Shown here: piece after piece, positions 1,636-20,222 of the stretch
Position numbering within the stretch: position 1 is the stretch's first letter
Layout of the letters: each line of letters starts with the position of its first letter
From: a virus
DNA: 20,901 bases
Virus record (IMG/VR): IMGVR_UViG_3300018424_000321
Span: 1 to 20,901 of that record
Strand: one strand, 5' to 3'
Notes under the pieces: model-generated
The model's database searches: none
What the model was told of the DNA's origin: nothing
What the model saw: only the letters and a program-made list of their open reading frames with translations
Program-made: the position numbers and the translations under genes

Positions 1636-3975
1636 TTATACACCACTCAATGCGGGATTATATGTTGACTTTAAGGTATCCGATACGTAGTATTTCGATT
1701 GTGGATCATACTTCATAATATTTCTAAGATCATCAATAACTAATGGCAAATACTCAGGTCTTAAAAGCAATATTTTTCTCTTTTCGTCATTTAGTTTACT
1801 TTCATAATCATAGTTTGTAACTGGGAAAGAACTTGCAGAACCACTTACTCTAATTATGGAAGAAGAACCTGGATCGAAGTACTGTAATTCTTCTGTAATT
1901 TTCTCTTGCCAGTCAGTACCATTCCATTTCCATGTTTTGTTATTTTGGAGATGAAGGTCACCAATTTCCACATTAACAATATCGTCTGGTTCACTAACAA
2001 TTCTAAAGTATGGAGAATTTACATAATTAGATCCCCCATTAGTAACCACAATGCTGGAGATTCCAGTATTTGAGTTCATCTGTACCGTGAATGAGGCAGT
2101 CTTAGAAATTGGAGCAGCGTCTATCGTTATCGTTGGAGCAACGGTGTATCCAAATCCAGCATTCGTTATTGTTATTGATGTGACTATTCCAGATACATTT
2201 ATGAAACTTTCTCCCGTTGCAGTTACTGCTGGATATGGAGAAGAGAAAGTAATTGTTGGACTTACTGTATAACCGATTCCAGAGTTGGTAACAGTTACTG
2301 TAGATACACCACTATTCGTGACAGTAGATGAAGCTTCTGCTACTGAATCCAATCTGTATTGGAATAATTTATCTGGATTTCCACCTATACTTCCAGCAAC
2401 TAAAACCTCTTTTCTATCTGATTTGACGTATACATCTACAGGATCTGTTATTTTGTCACCAATATAGTAATTTGCAATATAACTTCCACTAGAAAGATCC
2501 CATGGAGTTGATAAATCAAATTCTAAAACTGACTGCAATGTAGAACCAACTGCAAATAGTTTGGAACCATCTTCAAAGAAAGTAAATCCAGCTACTTCAT
2601 CTTCTCCACTAAGTCCAGTTATGTTCAGATTTCCAGATGAAGCTCCAATGCTTGAAAGATCCCATGCTGTCGATAGATTATATTGATGAACGGTATCAGC
2701 ACCAGAGATATTTAATATGTAAACAACCGTCCCATCGGACTTTAATCTAACTGCCCCTGGTTCTGGAATAGGAAGTGATTGAGATACCGTTGCAGTAGAT
2801 ATATCCCAGTTAGTTGAAAGTGTATACTTAACTAGACTATAAACACCACTTAATCCACCACAGACAAACATATATTGTCCATCTGCACTGAAATCAATTC
2901 CTGTTGTGTAACTAAAATTCGTACTTACATCGAGACCATTTGCAAAAGAAAGAGTGGTTACGTTCCATGGAGTAGACAAATCATATTCATTAATTAAGGT
3001 TGAACCAAATAAACTTGAAGAATATACTTTACTTCCATCTGACTTTACATACGCACCTTCTACAGAACTTCCTATAGTTGTGCCTCCAATGGAAACATAT
3101 GTTCCAGAAGCAAATACAATCGGTGGGAAAGAAAACTGTATTGTTGGAGAAGTTAATCCATAACCAACTCCAGACTCTAAATCTACAATTGATGTTACTT
3201 GACCACTTTCATCAATTACACACGATGCTGCGGCACTGACAGAAGTTGGAGGACTACTAAAGGTGATATTTGGTGCCTCGTTATATCCTACGCCACCATC
3301 TAAGTTTACTATAGTTGTTACATAGTAGTTGTTTATTACGCATTCGGAAGTCGCATCCGATGTTGCAGGCGGAGCGGAAAGATATACAGTTGGTGTTGTA
3401 TTATATCCTTGACCACTGTTTTCAATGTAGGCACCAACAATAGTTCCACCTGTTCCAACTAATGGGAGTAGACTTGCTCCAATTCCTGCCGATGTAATTG
3501 CTGGAAAAGTGATTCCAGGAGGAACTGAAGTTATCGTTTGATACTCTGGTGCTTTATAAAAAGACTCATCAACTATTAGGTTTCCTGGTAGTACTAATCT
3601 TTTGTAAGAATCATAAACAGCGATTGTTTCGTAGTGATGTATTCCAGTATATGCTTGGTCTCCATATTTGTCTTCTAAAAATTTACCGAGAGAATTTTCA
3701 TCTAAAGGCCATTGAGAATTTAAATCTATAATATTATTCGTTATTAAAATTACCCAGTCTAGTTCCGCATCTTCATAAAATTTTTCTGCAATTTGTTCTG
3801 GTCTTTCGTTTCCAGTGATGGAATAATAATCAAATGCAGAGACTACAGAAACTACATCGTCTCTAATCTTTGCTCTTTTGAATAGATTTTTAACAATAGT
3901 AACCTCATCATTGGACAATTCATTTTTTGTCCTGTTGTTAATTTCAATATTTGGTAATTCGTTGAAGTATCCCAT
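1636..3975 (-). CDS. 53: gp53-like baseplate wedge subunit with large propeller-like insertion
   Basis: The first ~145 residues match the gp53 pattern: YFNELPNI start, a DYYSITGNERPEQIAEKFY segment, DWVILITNNIID, and a KYG...HHYET region. The last ~80 residues (YDYESKLNDEKRKILLLRPEYL onward) look like the gp53 C-terminus. In T4, gp53 (about 196 residues) holds adjacent baseplate wedges together. This protein has 779 residues because about 510 are inserted. The insert contains three GY-x3-P-type beta repeats (residues ~181-290), five propeller-like repeats (~303-545) and three more GY-x3-P repeats (~555-660). The reading frame is intact from the gp53-like start to the gp53-like end, so this is an elaborated protein rather than two fused fragments. 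Its ATG lies one base after the gp48 stop. I infer that the insert projects from the baseplate and may bind a receptor or fibre; that role is not shown by the sequence. Confidence 0.85.
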   Translation of the reverse strand: MGYFNELPNIEINNRTKNELSNDEVTIVKNLFKRAKIRDDVVSVVSAFDYYSITGNERPEQIAEKFYEDAELDWVILITNNIIDLNSQWPLDENSLGKFLEDKYGDQAYTGIHHYETIAVYDSYKRLVLPGNLIVDESFYKAPEYQTITSVPPGITFPAITSAGIGASLLPLVGTGGTIVGAYIENSGQGYNTTPTVYLSAPPATSDATSECVINNYYVTTIVNLDGGVGYNEAPNITFSSPPTSVSAAASCVIDESGQVTSIVDLESGVGYGLTSPTIQFSFPPIVFASGTYVSIGGTTIGSSVEGAYVKSDGSKVYSSSLFGSTLINEYDLSTPWNVTTLSFANGLDVSTNFSYTTGIDFSADGQYMFVCGGLSGVYSLVKYTLSTNWDISTATVSQSLPIPEPGAVRLKSDGTVVYILNISGADTVHQYNLSTAWDLSSIGASSGNLNITGLSGEDEVAGFTFFEDGSKLFAVGSTLQSVLEFDLSTPWDLSSGSYIANYYIGDKITDPVDVYVKSDRKEVLVAGSIGGNPDKLFQYRLDSVAEASSTVTNSGVSTVTVTNSGIGYTVSPTITFSSPYPAVTATGESFINVSGIVTSITITNAGFGYTVAPTITIDAAPISKTASFTVQMNSNTGISSIVVTNGGSNYVNSPYFRIVSEPDDIVNVEIGDLHLQNNKTWKWNGTDWQEKITEELQYFDPGSSSIIRVSGSASSFPVTNYDYESKLNDEKRKILLLRPEYLPLVIDDLRNIMKYDPQSKYYVSDTLKSTYNPALSGV
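1996..2325 (-). repeat. GY-x3-P beta repeats, C-terminal set in gp53
   Basis: This stretch encodes about three imperfect protein repeats (gp53 residues ~551-660). Each runs as a short strand (TVTNSG, TITNAG, VVTNGG), then G-x-GY or a variant, then a PTITF- or PYFRI-like strand. The same repeat type occurs on the other side of the propeller-like block and in gp5. It probably forms small beta modules. Confidence 0.75.
2341..3069 (-). repeat. Five propeller-like repeats inside gp53
   Basis: Residues ~303-545 of gp53 hold five units of about 45-55 residues. The full unit reads roughly as: hydrophobic strand, then (K)SDG(S/T)(K/V)-x-Y/F, a loop, then (Y/F)-x-LST-x-W(D/N)(L/V/I)(S/T). Clear LST-x-W-(D/N) motifs occur at about 333-338, 386-391, 434-439 and 488-493; the fifth unit ends in a degenerate QYRLDS. 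The order and spacing resemble WD40/YncE-like beta-propeller blades of phage proteins. The fold is inferred from the repeat pattern. Confidence 0.72.
3076..3435 (-). repeat. GY-x3-P beta repeats, N-terminal set in gp53
   Basis: Three imperfect units (gp53 residues ~181-300) each contain an SGQGY-, GGVGY- or SGVGY-type turn, a P or SP, and a strand ending in (S/F)xPP. They precede the propeller-like block and mirror the C-terminal set, so the propeller is flanked on both sides by the same module. Confidence 0.75.
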
Positions 3976-7427: not shown

Positions 7428-8156
7428 ATGCCATTACCAACTATTGCTACACCGACTCATGAACTTGAGTTGCCTTCTACAGGAAAAAAAATTAAATACA
7501 GACCATTTCTGGTAAAAGAAGAGAAAATTCTAATCTTAGCTTTAGAGAGTCAAAATGTAAAAGATATCACTCTCGCAATAAAATCAGTTCTAAAGGATTG
7601 TATTTTAACAAGGGGAGTGAAAGTAGAGGATTTGCCTTCGTTTGATATTGAATATCTTTTCTTAAACATTAGAGGCAAATCAGTAGGAGAGGCTATAGAT
7701 CTAATTATAACTTGTTCTGATGACGGAGTAACCGAAGTTCCTGTCAAAATTTATGTTGATGAAATTCAGGTTCAAAAAGATCCAGAACATAGTCCTGAGA
7801 TAAAATTAGATGACAAAATTGCGATTAAGATGAAGTATCCATCGTTGGATCAGTTTATCAAAAACAATTTTGATTTTTCTGCGACGGAATCTTTATCTAC
7901 AATTGAACAGTCATTTGATATTATTGCGTCATGTATAGATGCAGTATTTACTGCTGAAGAATCTTGGGCTGCAGCCGACTGTACTAAAAAAGAATTGATT
8001 CAATTCATCGAAAGTATGAACACTGAACAATTCAAAAAGATTGAAAAGTTTTTTGAGACGATGCCTAAGTTGTCTCATACCTTTGAAGTAACAAATCCAA
8101 AGACAAAAGTAAAGAGTAGTGTAACGTTGGAGGGATTAACCAGTTTTTTCGGTTAA
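7428..8156 (+). CDS. 26: gp26-like baseplate hub / tail assembly chaperone
   Basis: A 242-residue protein assigned to gp26 (T4 about 208 residues), a baseplate hub assembly factor. The N-terminal pattern LPSTGKKIKYRPFLVKEEKILILALES is characteristic, followed by a helical region and DIEYLFLNIRGKSVGE. The middle has strands (VPVKIYVDEIQV) and a helical C-terminal domain. The position directly before the small gp51-like gene and two tape-measure candidates matches that of tail assembly chaperones (lambda gpG/gpT-like) in other tailed phages. The last codons (AGT TTT TTC GGT TAA) contain a T_TTT_TTC heptamer, so part of the product may be extended into gp51 by a -1 frameshift, giving about 305 residues. 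Confidence 0.85.
   Translation: MPLPTIATPTHELELPSTGKKIKYRPFLVKEEKILILALESQNVKDITLAIKSVLKDCILTRGVKVEDLPSFDIEYLFLNIRGKSVGEAIDLIITCSDDGVTEVPVKIYVDEIQVQKDPEHSPEIKLDDKIAIKMKYPSLDQFIKNNFDFSATESLSTIEQSFDIIASCIDAVFTAEESWAAADCTKKELIQFIESMNTEQFKKIEKFFETMPKLSHTFEVTNPKTKVKSSVTLEGLTSFFG
8129..8150 (+). other. Candidate programmed -1 frameshift site at the gp26/gp51 junction
   Basis: The heptamer T_TTT_TTC (8144-8150) is in register with gp26 codons, so paired tRNAs could slip back one base. The next codons in the new frame are CGG TTA ACA and then the ATG of gp51, with no stop. Nine bases before the heptamer lies GGAGGG (8129-8134), a Shine-Dalgarno-like element. It sits at a spacing like that which stimulates -1 slippage in bacterial dnaX, but 24 bases from the gp51 ATG, too far for normal initiation. 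No downstream stem-loop was worked out. Frameshifting itself is inferred. Confidence 0.55.
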
Positions 8157-8158
8157 CA

Positions 8159-8344
8159 ATGGCTCACATGCAGTTGGAGTCATATTATAGAATTAATTTT
8201 GCCCTAATGCAGTACCATAAATACTCATTGACTGAGGTTGAAAATATGATGCCTTGGGAAAGAGACATTTATCTTGCTTTGTTAAAACAACATATTGAAG
8301 AAGAAAACGAAAAAGTAAGACAGGCAGCAAACCGTGGCAATTAA
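8159..8344 (+). CDS. 51: gp51-like hub assembly / tail chaperone partner
   Basis: A 61-residue protein with the pattern YYRINFALMQYHKYSL...MPWERDIYLALLKQHIEEENEK. This resembles the short WER-x-IY motif of gp51-like and T-type tail assembly partners. T4 gp51 is much longer (about 249 residues), so the symbol is by position and motif. It starts two bases after the gp26 stop, in the -1 frame relative to gp26. No ribosome site sits at normal spacing before its ATG, so it is made by reinitiation, by a frameshifted gp26-gp51 fusion, or both. Its last 11 bases overlap the next gene. Its place directly before the tape-measure candidates matches a tail chaperone. Confidence 0.65.
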   Translation: MAHMQLESYYRINFALMQYHKYSLTEVENMMPWERDIYLALLKQHIEEENEKVRQAANRGN

Positions 8345-10082
8345 ATCAGCAATTAATCCAGGAAAAATGGTCGCCCAGAGACCGGCAACCATTTCTGGTG
8401 CTGTAAATTTTCTCGGAGGAGGTTCTCCCTTAGGAACATCAGTTGTTACATCTGCAGCTAATAAAATAGTAGGGTTTCAACGAGGTGCTGGAGCCGCTGT
8501 TGCACCAAGAGTTCCCGATCTAGGTTCCATAATTCAAACTTTATCTAGTAATATACTTTCAAACGTTGAAAATAAATTTGCATCTGCAAATCAAACTATA
8601 CAACAAGTAATTCAAAATAATTTTGCTGGACAACTTGGCCAATTCAGAAATCAAGTACAAGAAGCAGTTTCCAATCCACCAAGTAAAATATTATCTAATT
8701 TCTTAGGTCTTTACAAAAATGCAATCGAATATATTCGATTTTTGGGCGACAGAAAAAATGTAAAGAGACTGGGTGATAATATAAAAGCCTTACAAGGAGT
8801 ATTTACAGAATCTTTTGAAGTTGCAATATTAATAAGACAGACTATCAAAAAGATAGTCAAACAGCTCTCAAATTTGCCGAGAGCTAGATCTGGTCCAGGA
8901 GGATTGAACTTAGATGTTAGAGTTCCTGGTGGACCATTAAAGAGATCATTACCAACTAAAAGAAATTTAGCAAAAATGGCAATGATTGGTACTGGACTCG
9001 TTGGAGCTGGTGCAGTGGGATCCCAAGTAATCAATGCCATCTCTACACCAAGAGAAACTGCACAAGAAGTTGTCTCAGATTCATCAATGATACCACAAGA
9101 AGTGTTGTTTAGATTCACAGAAATACTGAATAGATTTGATAGAGCTTTACAGTCATTCCGATCCCCAAGTTCTAATCAGGGATCAATGCCAGTTCCTTCA
9201 CCAAGCATGTCACCTGATGATGAAAAAGAAAAAACTTCACCAGGTTCTTCATCTTCAGGAGCAGCTACTGCTGCTCCAGATTTAAAAACTGCCATTAGAC
9301 AATTAGAATCTGGTAACAATTATGGTGCTACCTTTAAAGGTTATCTAAGTGGTTTCTCAAGAAAAGATGAAGATATTACTAAGATGACTATTGCTGAGGT
9401 AGTTCAATATCAAAAAGATTATATTGCCCATCAGAAAGCACTGGGTATTCCTGAAGATAAGAGAAGTGCTGCGGTTGGTGCATATCAAATGCTTTATCCA
9501 GATACTGCTGCTCAAAAATTAGGAATATCTTTAGACTCTAAGTTTGATAAAGAAACTCAAGATAAACTATCTCAATATTATTTGAATGTTGCTGGATATC
9601 AAGATTGGAAAGCAGGAAAGATAACGGATGCAGAGTTTAATGATAGATTGGCAGGACAATTTGCATCAGTTAAAAAAGTAAGTGGAGTTGGTGCATATGA
9701 TAATGATGGTTTGAATAAGGCATATGGAAATATTATGCCTGTTCTACAGAAAGAAAAGAGTGGAGTAACAACTCCTGTCACGTCTGCAACTACTTACACA
9801 ACTATAGAAGAAGCGATAAGATCCTCTTCAAGTCCACAAGAAGTAATAGACAATATTATAACACAAGTATCAAAACCAGTTGCTTCTGGTGGTTCACAAC
9901 CACAAGTGAATATTGTACCTATAACTTTAGGTACACCCCAATCAAATAGTGGAGCAGGAATGAATGTAGGATCTTCACCTTCCTCATCTGGAGGATCTCA
10001 GGTTCCGTTCCTTTCTTCATCTAATGAAGATAACTTCTTCACAATGTTATCAAAAGTTGTTTATAACATCGTAGACGGATAA
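8334..10082 (+). CDS. Large tail/hub protein with lysozyme-like domain (tape-measure candidate)
   Basis: A 582-residue protein. The first ~300 residues have Gln/Asn-rich helices (NKFASANQTIQQVIQNN), a probable hydrophobic or membrane-like segment (about 212-236, LAKMAMIGTGLVGAGAVGSQ) and a Ser/Pro linker. Residues ~315-475 resemble a lysozyme/transglycosylase-like domain: QLESGNNY with a possible catalytic Glu325, then SAAVGAYQML (380-387) and a Trp-rich helical end. The C-terminus is low-complexity Ser/Thr/Pro. It probably lies in the tail lumen or hub and cuts peptidoglycan during DNA entry. The start is uncertain: GTG at 8334 overlaps gp51, or ATG at 8367 with AGGA close upstream. Being right after the chaperone pair makes it, or the next gene, the tape measure. 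Confidence 0.7.
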   Translation: MAIKSAINPGKMVAQRPATISGAVNFLGGGSPLGTSVVTSAANKIVGFQRGAGAAVAPRVPDLGSIIQTLSSNILSNVENKFASANQTIQQVIQNNFAGQLGQFRNQVQEAVSNPPSKILSNFLGLYKNAIEYIRFLGDRKNVKRLGDNIKALQGVFTESFEVAILIRQTIKKIVKQLSNLPRARSGPGGLNLDVRVPGGPLKRSLPTKRNLAKMAMIGTGLVGAGAVGSQVINAISTPRETAQEVVSDSSMIPQEVLFRFTEILNRFDRALQSFRSPSSNQGSMPVPSPSMSPDDEKEKTSPGSSSSGAATAAPDLKTAIRQLESGNNYGATFKGYLSGFSRKDEDITKMTIAEVVQYQKDYIAHQKALGIPEDKRSAAVGAYQMLYPDTAAQKLGISLDSKFDKETQDKLSQYYLNVAGYQDWKAGKITDAEFNDRLAGQFASVKKVSGVGAYDNDGLNKAYGNIMPVLQKEKSGVTTPVTSATTYTTIEEAIRSSSSPQEVIDNIITQVSKPVASGGSQPQVNIVPITLGTPQSNSGAGMNVGSSPSSSGGSQVPFLSSSNEDNFFTMLSKVVYNIVDG

Positions 10083-17081: not shown

Positions 17082-18802
17082 TGGCTACAGGAATAGGTAC
17101 TACAGCTTCACTATCAACTACTAGTGGAGTCTCCGATGCTTCGGTTTATATTCAAAGAGCTTTAGGACTAAGTACTTCAACATCATCTAAGAAGACTGTA
17201 AGAATTATTGACTCCATGAAGAGTGAAATTGAGTCGAAAAAACAACAGTATGAACAAATTAATGATTTATTATTATTACTTGATCTTGATTTGGATATGT
17301 ATTCTGAACTCATATTGAATATAGATGAAAAAATACCCACACCAATCCAAGAAATAAACACAAAAATTACTTCTGTTCAAGATGCATATAGAAACAGAGT
17401 AAATATTGGATGTAAAAATGATCTACATTGGGTATTGCAATCTACTAAAACTGTAAGTGGGATTGATACTCTCGGAAATCCTTTCAGTAAAAACTATTCT
17501 ACTTATAAGACTGAGAAGATACCATCAGAATACAGACAAATTAATTACTATGGAGCAAAATATTATAAAAGACCGAAAGATCGTGATTATGGATCTAGTG
17601 CAGTAAAAGAAATTCCCAGTGCTTCTGTAGGAATAGGTAGTACATATATGGTCTTATTAGACTCAACTACAGATTCAACTGGATTTAGAATCTTATCAGG
17701 AATTCAGACTGGAGATACTATAACAGATTCTATTGAACTGCCAATTATCTTTACAGTTGGAGATTTACCCGAGGTAGTTGGATTTGGATCAACTTCACTT
17801 TTGGGAATAAGTACAACATTTGGTGGATCTATTTCTTTTGGATCAACAATTCTTGCATATGCAGGCGTCAACACTACTTCGGGAATAAACACTGGAGATC
17901 CAATATGGAGAACAGGAATTACTTCTACTGATAGTGTGGTTGTTGGATTCGGTACAACTACTATCTCCATATCTGGCATTAACACTCTAGGAGTTTCAAC
18001 TACTTTCGAAATTGATACAACATCAATAATCCTAAGTAAACCTGCAATAGCTTCCACAAGTGAATCTATTTTCAACGTTGGAATTTATACTTCATATCCA
18101 ACAATCTTTATCAGTGAAACTTCTGCAAGTGGAACTGATGATGATAACTTCTTTGTAGTGAGGCAAACAGGTAGTGCAGAAAACTTTGACCCAGTTACAA
18201 ATGGAGAAAATCCTGTAGAAGTTGGACTTGTTAAAGACTCAAACAAAACTGGTTATGGACACGTAATCTCATTGATTAACAATGGAAGTCCAGATGTAAC
18301 AAAGACTTATACAGAAGATGTTGATCCAGAACCGTCTGTTGGTGCTGGATTTGCTTTCTATTATGAAGGAAATGAGTCTTGGCCAGGAATAAATGTACCT
18401 GTTCTCGGAGGTGTTGGGGGAACCAGTGTGGTTGGATATACTTTCACTTATGCAAATGAAGGACAAACACTAACTACATTAAGTGGGGTTGGTGTAACGA
18501 CTCCTTCGGCAGGTATTGCTTACGCAGGAACTAGTGCTTTAGCTCCGAGTGCTGGTACATGTGCCGCTGCTGATGCCGCAATTTCAACCGCCGAATCTGA
18601 ATTGGAGTCAATAAAAAATACAAATATACCAAAGATTAATGATTACATTACTAAAGCTAGAACATTAAGAACAATAAGAGATAGCAAACAAAGCAAAGCA
18701 TGGGCGTATAGGAGAGGTAGAGGTGCAATAAACAATGATATTAAAGAATTGGAGTCGGATATTGGAACTTTAGAAGACTTGGATTTGGATGAATTCGAAT
18801 GA
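17081..18802 (+). CDS. Large virion structural protein (coiled-coil and Gly/Thr-rich beta region)
   Basis: A 573-residue protein resembling a structural protein of marine T4-like phages, without a T4 counterpart I can name. Residues ~42-105 look like a coiled coil (DSMKSEIESKKQQYEQIND, then LDLDLDMYSELILNIDEK). The middle, about 190-480, is rich in Gly/Ser/Thr/Ile beta strands with recurring GFGST, GISTTF, GVNTTSGIN and GTSVVGY turns. Residues ~493-573 are helical again (AAISTAESELESIKNT, then KINDYITKARTLRTIRDSK), ending in an acidic tail (DLDEFE). This helix-beta-helix layout suits a long fibrous or baseplate peripheral protein. The ATG overlaps the previous stop (TAATG), and its own stop overlaps the next ATG (ATGA). 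Confidence 0.65.
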   Translation: MATGIGTTASLSTTSGVSDASVYIQRALGLSTSTSSKKTVRIIDSMKSEIESKKQQYEQINDLLLLLDLDLDMYSELILNIDEKIPTPIQEINTKITSVQDAYRNRVNIGCKNDLHWVLQSTKTVSGIDTLGNPFSKNYSTYKTEKIPSEYRQINYYGAKYYKRPKDRDYGSSAVKEIPSASVGIGSTYMVLLDSTTDSTGFRILSGIQTGDTITDSIELPIIFTVGDLPEVVGFGSTSLLGISTTFGGSISFGSTILAYAGVNTTSGINTGDPIWRTGITSTDSVVVGFGTTTISISGINTLGVSTTFEIDTTSIILSKPAIASTSESIFNVGIYTSYPTIFISETSASGTDDDNFFVVRQTGSAENFDPVTNGENPVEVGLVKDSNKTGYGHVISLINNGSPDVTKTYTEDVDPEPSVGAGFAFYYEGNESWPGINVPVLGGVGGTSVVGYTFTYANEGQTLTTLSGVGVTTPSAGIAYAGTSALAPSAGTCAAADAAISTAESELESIKNTNIPKINDYITKARTLRTIRDSKQSKAWAYRRGRGAINNDIKELESDIGTLEDLDLDEFE

Positions 18803-19482
18803 CATTATTTTGTTTTGGTGATAGTTGGGCTAGAGGTGCTGAACTTAAAGAATTCGAAAAACCTTTTGTGCATTGGTTGTCTGCGGAGTTAGGTACTTCG
18901 TATGTTAATTATGGGGAGGACGATAATAGTCTAGGTATGGTTTTAAACACAATAGTTTCTAAATCAAAAGAAATAACTGTTGATGATGTTGTTATTGTTA
19001 TAGTACCACCAGACATAAGATGGTACGATGAAGACGAGGAAAACGGATTTTATTCTTTGACCCTTTGGCAAAGAGATGATTATTTTAAATTTTTAAAAAA
19101 TAAAACATTAGAGTGGTTTATATATCATCATGTTTTGTTTATATACGCGATACAAAAAATATTAAATGATATTGGATGTCGTTATGTGATGGCACATAAC
19201 TATGGTCAACTAAATCCTGATGAGTGTAAAAAATATGATCTTTCCATTGATTACTCGAAATTTTTAAGTAATGAAAGTTTAACAAATTTATTGTCAACAC
19301 GTAGATCAGAATGGAAAAGTTATCCTACTCACTTACCTTCTTGTCATAGATATGATGAAGATGGCCCACCGACACATGAATTTTCAGGAATATACTTTGA
19401 GGGGTGTTGTGACCATCCAAATGAATTGGGACATCGAAAAATATCTGAATTAATTTTTAAAAAACTAAATCAATTTAAATGA
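18799..19482 (+). CDS. SGNH-hydrolase-like protein 1
   Basis: A 227-residue protein with the SGNH/GDSL layout. Block I is GDSW at residues 7-10 (catalytic Ser9), and a YGEDDNSLG loop may hold the block II/III Gly and Asn. The C-terminus has CDHPNELGH (His at 206 and 212, Asp at 205) followed by a helix (RKISELIFKKL), as in block V. Families of this type are esterases or lipases that remove acyl groups from carbohydrates or lipids; the substrate here is unknown. The spacing of the Asp and His is a little unusual. The gene overlaps its neighbours by four bases on each side. Its base composition is extremely AT-rich (about 15% GC at 19081-19140), which suggests recent arrival. Confidence 0.7.
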   Translation: MTLFCFGDSWARGAELKEFEKPFVHWLSAELGTSYVNYGEDDNSLGMVLNTIVSKSKEITVDDVVIVIVPPDIRWYDEDEENGFYSLTLWQRDDYFKFLKNKTLEWFIYHHVLFIYAIQKILNDIGCRYVMAHNYGQLNPDECKKYDLSIDYSKFLSNESLTNLLSTRRSEWKSYPTHLPSCHRYDEDGPPTHEFSGIYFEGCCDHPNELGHRKISELIFKKLNQFK

Positions 19483-20222
19483 CCAAGGTAGCTGTGTATG
19501 GAGATAGTTTTGCACATCGACATGACGGTTGGCCTAGTTATCTTGAAAAATTGATGAAAGCGGAAATTACTCTCTTTGGTGTTTCCGGAAGTTCAGTAGC
19601 GTATTCATACCATAAGTTTTTAGAGACTCACGAAAAATTTGATTTAGTATATTTTTTTTGGACAACTCATGATAGGAGTTGGTTAATTTCAACAAAAAAC
19701 AGTATATTTAATACTCTTCGCAGTGATTTAATACATTACACCAGTTTTCAACCACATTGGGACATAAAAGATACTTTTGACCTCCATAGACAAAAATATA
19801 ATTCAAATCTCACCGATGATCTAAAAAAATTTATATCTAATGAAAAAGAAAATTGCCAATTGTATCCAGATAAAAATTTTATAAGTGTTTTTGCTATGAG
19901 AGATAGTGTTAAATTAAGGAGACCAGATTGTATCAACATATCAACCATGGATGAAATTCAAATGGTAGGAACAAAATTAAAAAAAAGTTTTGTGGGAATG
20001 GGAAATATACAAAAACAGGACATGATGCAATTTTCTTCAAAATTTTTAGATGAAGATAGAGATAAAAGACCAAATCATTTAACTATTAAACAAAACAAAG
20101 AATTTGCAGCATATCTGAATCTATCGAAAGAAGGTAAAGTGGATTTGAATAAAACATTCAAAAATCCCTCAAAATATTACAGTATGTCAAAGACCTTCGA
20201 GGAGTCTGGATTTATCCGTTGA
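19479..20222 (+). CDS. SGNH-hydrolase-like protein 2
   Basis: A 247-residue protein starting MTKVAVYGDSFAH, with GDSF at residues 8-11 (Ser10). It has a GVSGSSVAYSYHKF loop as candidate block II and a C-terminal RPNHLTIKQNKEFA segment with a candidate Asp195...His200 pair. The pattern is that of phage SGNH-like proteins. It shares class but little visible sequence with the preceding gene, so the two are not a simple recent duplication. Its start overlaps the previous stop (ATGA). The long AT-rich codon use matches the previous gene. It could modify surface glycans, but a nonenzymatic role or a role in host takeover is also possible. Its stop codon overlaps the -35 box of a candidate promoter. 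Confidence 0.65.
   Translation: MTKVAVYGDSFAHRHDGWPSYLEKLMKAEITLFGVSGSSVAYSYHKFLETHEKFDLVYFFWTTHDRSWLISTKNSIFNTLRSDLIHYTSFQPHWDIKDTFDLHRQKYNSNLTDDLKKFISNEKENCQLYPDKNFISVFAMRDSVKLRRPDCINISTMDEIQMVGTKLKKSFVGMGNIQKQDMMQFSSKFLDEDRDKRPNHLTIKQNKEFAAYLNLSKEGKVDLNKTFKNPSKYYSMSKTFEESGFIR

Follow-up and report, generated by a model that had tools for sequence, protein, structure and literature searches.

A predicted programmed −1 frameshift at the gp26/gp51 junction would make short and long tail assembly chaperones in T4-like phages

In a marine T4-like phage, the adjacent genes annotated as gp26 and gp51 are best read as a single locus from which a programmed −1 ribosomal frameshift would make both forms of a tail assembly chaperone, and we put the probability of this reading at about 0.9. 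Slippage itself, its efficiency and the chaperone function of the products in this phage are what we infer from the genome and its relatives, as laid out below.

Results

The DNA analysed (the window) is a stretch of 20,901 nucleotides, positions 1 to 20,901 of IMG/VR record IMGVR_UViG_3300018424_000321, and is part of a phage akin to cyanophages. The best isolate match of its gp26 protein is in Synechococcus phage S-SCSM2R (74% amino-acid identity), and gp26 is the sole match to PF12322 within the record. The 3′ end of gp26 reads AGT (8142) TTT TTC GGT TAA (8154-8156), with one sense codon between the heptamer and the stop, and the codons following a slip would be CGG (8150) TTA ACA ATG (8159). 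An earlier reading of the sequence alone had proposed a heptamer in gp26 codon register, a −1 frame running into gp51 without a stop, a GGAGGG element placed 9 nt ahead of the heptamer and 24 nt ahead of the gp51 ATG, and a fusion of about 305 residues beside a 242-residue gp26. Every one of these was reproduced when the coordinates were re-read: the heptamer is exact, the −1 frame is stop-free until 8342-8344, and the fusion (TAC-NC, the long form) comes to 241 + 64 = 305 residues. Two points go beyond that reading. One is a downstream hairpin; the other is the status of ATG 8159, which, at a position occupied by Leu in many lineages, may be just a Met codon within the predicted fusion. Profile matches (Pfam, phrog) gave no tape-measure assignment for the two downstream ORFs of 582 and 609 aa. 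Features of the junction are collected in Table 1.

Table 1. Features of the gp26/gp51 junction in the window.
Feature	Positions	Strand	Basis
gp26, predicted short form of tail assembly chaperone (TAC-N), 242 aa	7428..8156	+	PF12322 E 6e-72; phrog_150 positions 5-232 of 282
GGAGGG, putative SD-like 5′ stimulator, 9 nt before heptamer	8129..8134	+	SD position and GAG-for-Glu counts
Predicted slippery heptamer T_TTT_TTC	8144..8150	+	T6 in same register in 357/361 distinct loci
Predicted −1 frame C-terminal extension, 64 residues (CGG TTA ACA ATG to stop 8342-8344)	8150..8344	+	Open frame; phrog_634 and phrog_150 positions 240-280
Zero-frame stop TAA, end of short form	8154..8156	+	
Predicted hairpin, 8 nt past heptamer: 8159-8165 with 8177-8183, plus inner 2-bp stem; spans gp51 ATG	8159..8183	+	Folding z-scores, pair counts
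ORF named gp51 in annotation of relatives, 61 aa from ATG	8159..8344	+	
Next gene, 582 aa, GTG start overlapping gp51 end; tape-measure position	8334..10082	+	phrog_18972 (unknown function) E 2e-64

Comparison with relatives was based on a first IMG/VR scan, six further scans and isolate genomes, which together gave 361 distinct loci. One scan used a pattern containing FF, which biases it toward FF at the protein level but not toward particular nucleotides, and the other scans did not; raw locus counts are inflated by phylogenetic relatedness. Heptamer, register and −1 relation were kept in the related junctions, with the SD element about 10 nt upstream in marine relatives, and the free variation of heptamer and frame between two retained genes that the sequence-only reading had named as contrary evidence was not seen among them. 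TTTTTTC was exact in all 79 intact-junction loci of the first scan (gp26 64-100% identical), and the T6 core stood in gp26 register in 357 of the 361 loci, down to about 30% protein identity. These include cyanophages and phages of Methylophilales, Pseudomonas, Cronobacter, Aeromonas, Stenotrophomonas, Vibrio, Delftia and Sinorhizobium; the site was read separately in Delftia phage PhiW-14 and Sinorhizobium phage phiN3. The seventh base varies (C in 313, A in 22, T in 21 and G in 1 of the 357), as does the residue ahead of the six Ts (S, N, D, A, G or R), the codon of which always ends in T. Elsewhere in 270 representative gp26 genes an in-register T6 occurs at 32 of 62,951 codon positions, compared with 270 of 270 at the 3′ end.

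Six Ts might simply accompany a conserved SFF C-terminus in T-rich genes, with the −1 relation to gp51 arising by chance: the C-terminal EGLxSFF motif is indeed conserved at the protein level, and TTT makes up 72% of Phe codons in these gp26 genes. However, FF elsewhere in gp26 is mostly written TTCTTT (161 of 279 instances) and just 8 of the 279 have the form T/TTT-TTY; the second Phe has become Leu (TTA or TTG) in 23 loci with T6 intact, and the −1 frame is open throughout. The Phe-to-Leu lineages, together with those in which gp51 lacks a start codon (see below), contradict such a coincidence, the probability of which we regard as next to nil. Since the flanking and second residues change while T6 stays, it is the six Ts that appear to be under constraint, not Phe-Phe, and conservation of the heptamer exceeds what the amino acids need. 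On the evidence of these comparisons, the predicted programmed −1 frameshift site is real and strongly conserved. As a separate observation on this end of the protein, gp26 of several non-cyanophage relatives (L086-L089, L337 and others) has a zinc-ribbon-like CPKCG or CPHCG near its C-terminus where cyanophages have NPKTG.

A homopolymer is also a potential site for slippage by RNA polymerase, in which case mRNAs with an altered number of Ts would give the fusion by normal translation. The run is exactly six Ts long in 336 of the 357 loci, whereas described bacterial cases use runs of about nine (PMC5009743). Moreover, the run begins at a third codon position in every case, and this argues against polymerase slippage, for which such a register is irrelevant, whereas it does matter for ribosomal slippage on X_XXY_YYZ. 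We consider the transcriptional route highly improbable.

Upstream of the heptamer, an SD core was found at a distance of 7-17 nt in 343 of 357 loci, as against 7.8% of control sites. In the 262 cyanophage-like representatives the match ends 10 nt upstream in 201, and the Glu codon at the SD is GAG in 80% compared with 28% elsewhere in the same genes. By these codon counts, the upstream SD is kept synonymously.

Downstream, the 50 nt past the heptamer were folded and compared with dinucleotide shuffles. The corresponding segment of the window (8151-8200) gave −9.6 kcal/mol and a z-score of −1.9; a 100-nt fold of the window alone was not significant (z −0.57). Over 80 diverse loci the mean z was −2.09, with 49% below −2, and the same test at seven control offsets in gp26 and gp51 gave means from −0.61 to +0.10, so that the folding signal is confined to the 3′ flank of the heptamer. 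An RNAalifold consensus over 111-150 loci was empty, with no structure, as would be expected if the stem is placed differently between lineages; folding was instead assessed genome by genome, through z-scores set against control offsets, and by counting pairs in one fixed register. In the shared stem register 71.6% of cells pair, compared with 27-46% when the register is slid, and two-sided changes in the stem numbered 34 against 14.4 in shuffles, a control limited in what it proves by relatedness among the loci. The stem of P-SSM2 shares this register but is longer, and relatives of S-PM2 have a long stem in a different one. Hairpins were stronger on average in genomes with the gp51 ATG (mean z −2.63) than in start-less ones (−0.97), a difference partly confounded by kinship. 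Very strong hairpins were also found in loci with no ATG there (L189, L199 and L205), which weakens the idea of the hairpin as a mere mask of the gp51 ATG. The hairpin is thus lineage-variable, not universal, and may stimulate slippage, hide the ATG, or both.

The −1 ORF spans 56-68 codons in the 324 loci measured, and stretches of 56 codons open in the −1 frame were found at 2 of 6,352 sampled places elsewhere in gp26. In 55 distinct loci (35 after thinning) this frame contains no ATG, GTG or TTG ahead of the conserved N-F motif of gp51, and the residues upstream of that motif are themselves conserved (R/L-I/L-A-L-x-H-x-x-L-x-x-Y-Y). Independent initiation of gp51 at a common start codon is impossible in these loci and frameshifting is needed, which makes them, among the comparisons made here, the strongest evidence for it. 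On a tree of 183 gp26 proteins, presence of the start codon switched at least 9-10 times on well-supported branches, showing that the heptamer persists through repeated gain and loss of start codons.

Many loci do have a start, and translation that terminates at 8154-8156 could in principle resume from the ATG 2 nt further on, yielding a separate gp51, with the hairpin closing that ATG until a ribosome arrives. Such an ATG, at codon 3 of the −1 frame, is present in 203 loci, the hairpin covers it and is on average stronger where it occurs, and three loci without the heptamer show the usual coupled layout, TAATG (L090, L091 and L441). Against this, the 55 start-less loci keep the heptamer, for which, as for its register, reinitiation offers no role; the same codon encodes Leu in 107 loci; and very strong hairpins occur without the ATG. 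An SD core lies at initiation distance in only 2 of 240 ATG-bearing loci; for comparison, the proportion is 139 of 349 at gp26 starts and 75 of 322 at those of the gene that follows. Reinitiation as the sole explanation is therefore improbable, and it may operate alongside frameshifting.

Four of the 361 loci lack T6. L355 is a T4-type gp51. L090 (Vibrio VAP7) and L091 (Vibrio K475), an Ackermannviridae member and a similar phage, keep the −1 relation without the heptamer, as does L441 (Shigella ChubbyThor), of Ackermannviridae or similar; their TAATG junctions suggest that coupled initiation replaced slippage in this group, or the reverse. In the fourth, L304:1501-2391 (IMGVR_UViG_3300049043_000112, 236 kb), gp26 and gp51 are in one frame encoding 297 aa, and loss of the heptamer is consistent with a 2-nt deletion. 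No second copy was found in the 236-kb contig, and L304 is either an assembly error or a phage making only the long form. Its fusion was predicted as one protein with a pLDDT of 91.6. Short gp51 rows, whose N-termini were misaligned when included, were left out of the alignment used for folding. Different phages' chaperones need not share a detectable fold. A Foldseek search of the L304 model against the PDB gave no match below E 0.35 and a sequence search of the PDB gave no match; predicted viral structures of T4-type hub proteins do match the model.

We compared the two products with protein families and with their T4 namesakes. Within the 282 positions of phrog_150, gp26 covers 5-232 and gp51 covers 240-280, and gp51 also belongs to phrog_634. 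T4 gp26 (208 aa) and T4 gp51 (249 aa) both match PF12322 and phrog_150; of the two, gp51 alone reaches phrog_150 position 280, with a further match to phrog_634 (the family of cyanophage gp51), and it aligns end to end with gp26 plus gp51 of the window. The T4 genes are separate and on opposite strands. In an unrooted tree, T4-type gp26 (support 84/91), T4-type gp51 (100/99) and the slip-site group form separate clades. Family coverage, including the C extension, identifies T4 gp26 as the short form and T4 gp51 as the long form, so that the two T4 paralogues are what the window phage would make by slippage from one locus: its short and C-extended forms are encoded by one sequence, and in T4 the homologues are a short and a long protein. 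Accordingly, "gp26" of the window would be the N part, and "gp51" the C-terminal extension, of one tail assembly chaperone of the lambda G/GT type. The sequence-only reading had taken them for the T4-like equivalent of G/GT; family matches support the chaperone assignment, but the "gp51" of the window is not equivalent to the product of T4 gene 51. T4 gp51 is needed for tail assembly yet absent from the virion (PMC3004832).

Three side observations concern other parts of the window. The minus strand at 371-1615, inside the structural gene block, encodes 414 aa with SPASM and radical-SAM-like domains. Also on the minus strand, 1636-3975 encodes a gp53-like baseplate wedge protein. This has 779 aa, and long repeat-like insertions separate its N-terminal gp53 part from its end; the T4 protein gp53 has a mass of 23 kDa (PMC3004832). 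Two adjacent ORFs at 18799-20222 (227 and 247 aa) each open with a GDS motif (FGDSWARG, YGDSFAHR) resembling SGNH-type hydrolases, and no Pfam match was found for them.

Discussion

We propose that most ribosomes would read gp26 to the stop at 8154 and release the 242-aa short form. Pairing of GGAGGG with the 16S anti-SD would hold some of them, as would, probably, the hairpin from 8159. Held ribosomes would slip one base back on T_TTT_TTC, with tRNA-Phe re-pairing on TTT TTT, and continue in the −1 frame through CGG TTA ACA ATG to make the 305-residue long form. The lambda pair gpG/gpGT suggests by analogy how the work may be divided, with the N part binding the tape-measure protein and the C extension bringing in tail-tube subunits. 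In ATG-bearing loci, the window included, free gp51 made by reinitiation besides the fusion is possible. A frameshift level of 6-7% was found in two tail-chaperone genes tested (PMC3711429). It is a speculative and rather doubtful extension of the proposal that the full dnaX-type signal drives slippage far above the few percent of lambda-type sites, bringing the long:short ratio nearer to that which T4 may obtain from two genes, and that the hairpin shuts off free gp51 in ATG-bearing lineages.

The arrangement resembles lambda gpG/gpGT in several respects: one locus would yield a short and a rarer long form through a −1 slip where the first ORF ends, no other role is obvious for either gene, and both lie in the tail gene block (PMC5009743). 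Unlike lambda, the predicted site here has the form T_TTT_TTN, accompanied by a conserved SD and in many cases a hairpin, in a phage with a contractile tail, and the proteins are of the PF12322 family, for which homology to gpG is putative at most. T4 gp26/gp51 are of the same protein family, the C extension of T4 gp51 included, but in T4 they are two paralogous opposite-strand genes without a frameshift, where the window phage has one locus with a predicted slip site. In layout the junction resembles Escherichia coli dnaX, in which an SD-like element, an X_XXY_YYZ heptamer and a 3′ hairpin follow in the same order (PMC3711429), with an SD spacing of about 10 nt. The heptamer is built on U6 here as opposed to A6G, the dnaX frameshift product is the shorter one, and the hairpin here is not universal.

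In long-tailed phages, G-T frameshifting was described in a 2016 review as conserved except in T4 (PMC5009743). By its title and the citations to it, Vladimirov et al. 2022 already covers tail assembly chaperones and poly-T signals of T4-like phages, and it is cited for poly-T slippery signals in T4-like TAC-N genes (PMC12846349). The latter report describes a chaperone frameshift in Pakpunavirus/Vandenendeviridae (GTTTTT, phage Adele) that is likewise a T-rich −1 site ending the short form with an uninterrupted −1 frame, and supports it by a comparative argument of the same style; that phage is of a different family, and the passages on its site describe neither an SD nor a hairpin (PMC12846349). 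We found no published description of an SD plus hairpin at a T4-like chaperone slip site, Vladimirov et al. 2022 entering this search through its title and citations. The kind of device is thus already known, and the dnaX-like set of stimulators may be new for tail chaperones.

For many marine T4-like genomes these results imply a change of annotation, since the "gp51 baseplate hub assembly catalyst" would be the tail end of the gp26 product. This part has been given an arbitrary start or missed outright, as in Cronobacter S13 and Aeromonas avDM12, where gp51 is unannotated though the −1 frame encodes it. The comparison also suggests why T4, the exception to G-GT frameshifting in the review, has gp26 and gp51: both forms would be supplied by duplicated genes. 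Because a slip site, duplicated genes, a TAATG junction and an in-frame fusion all occur in one family, comparing them offers a test of which long:short chaperone ratio a contractile tail requires.
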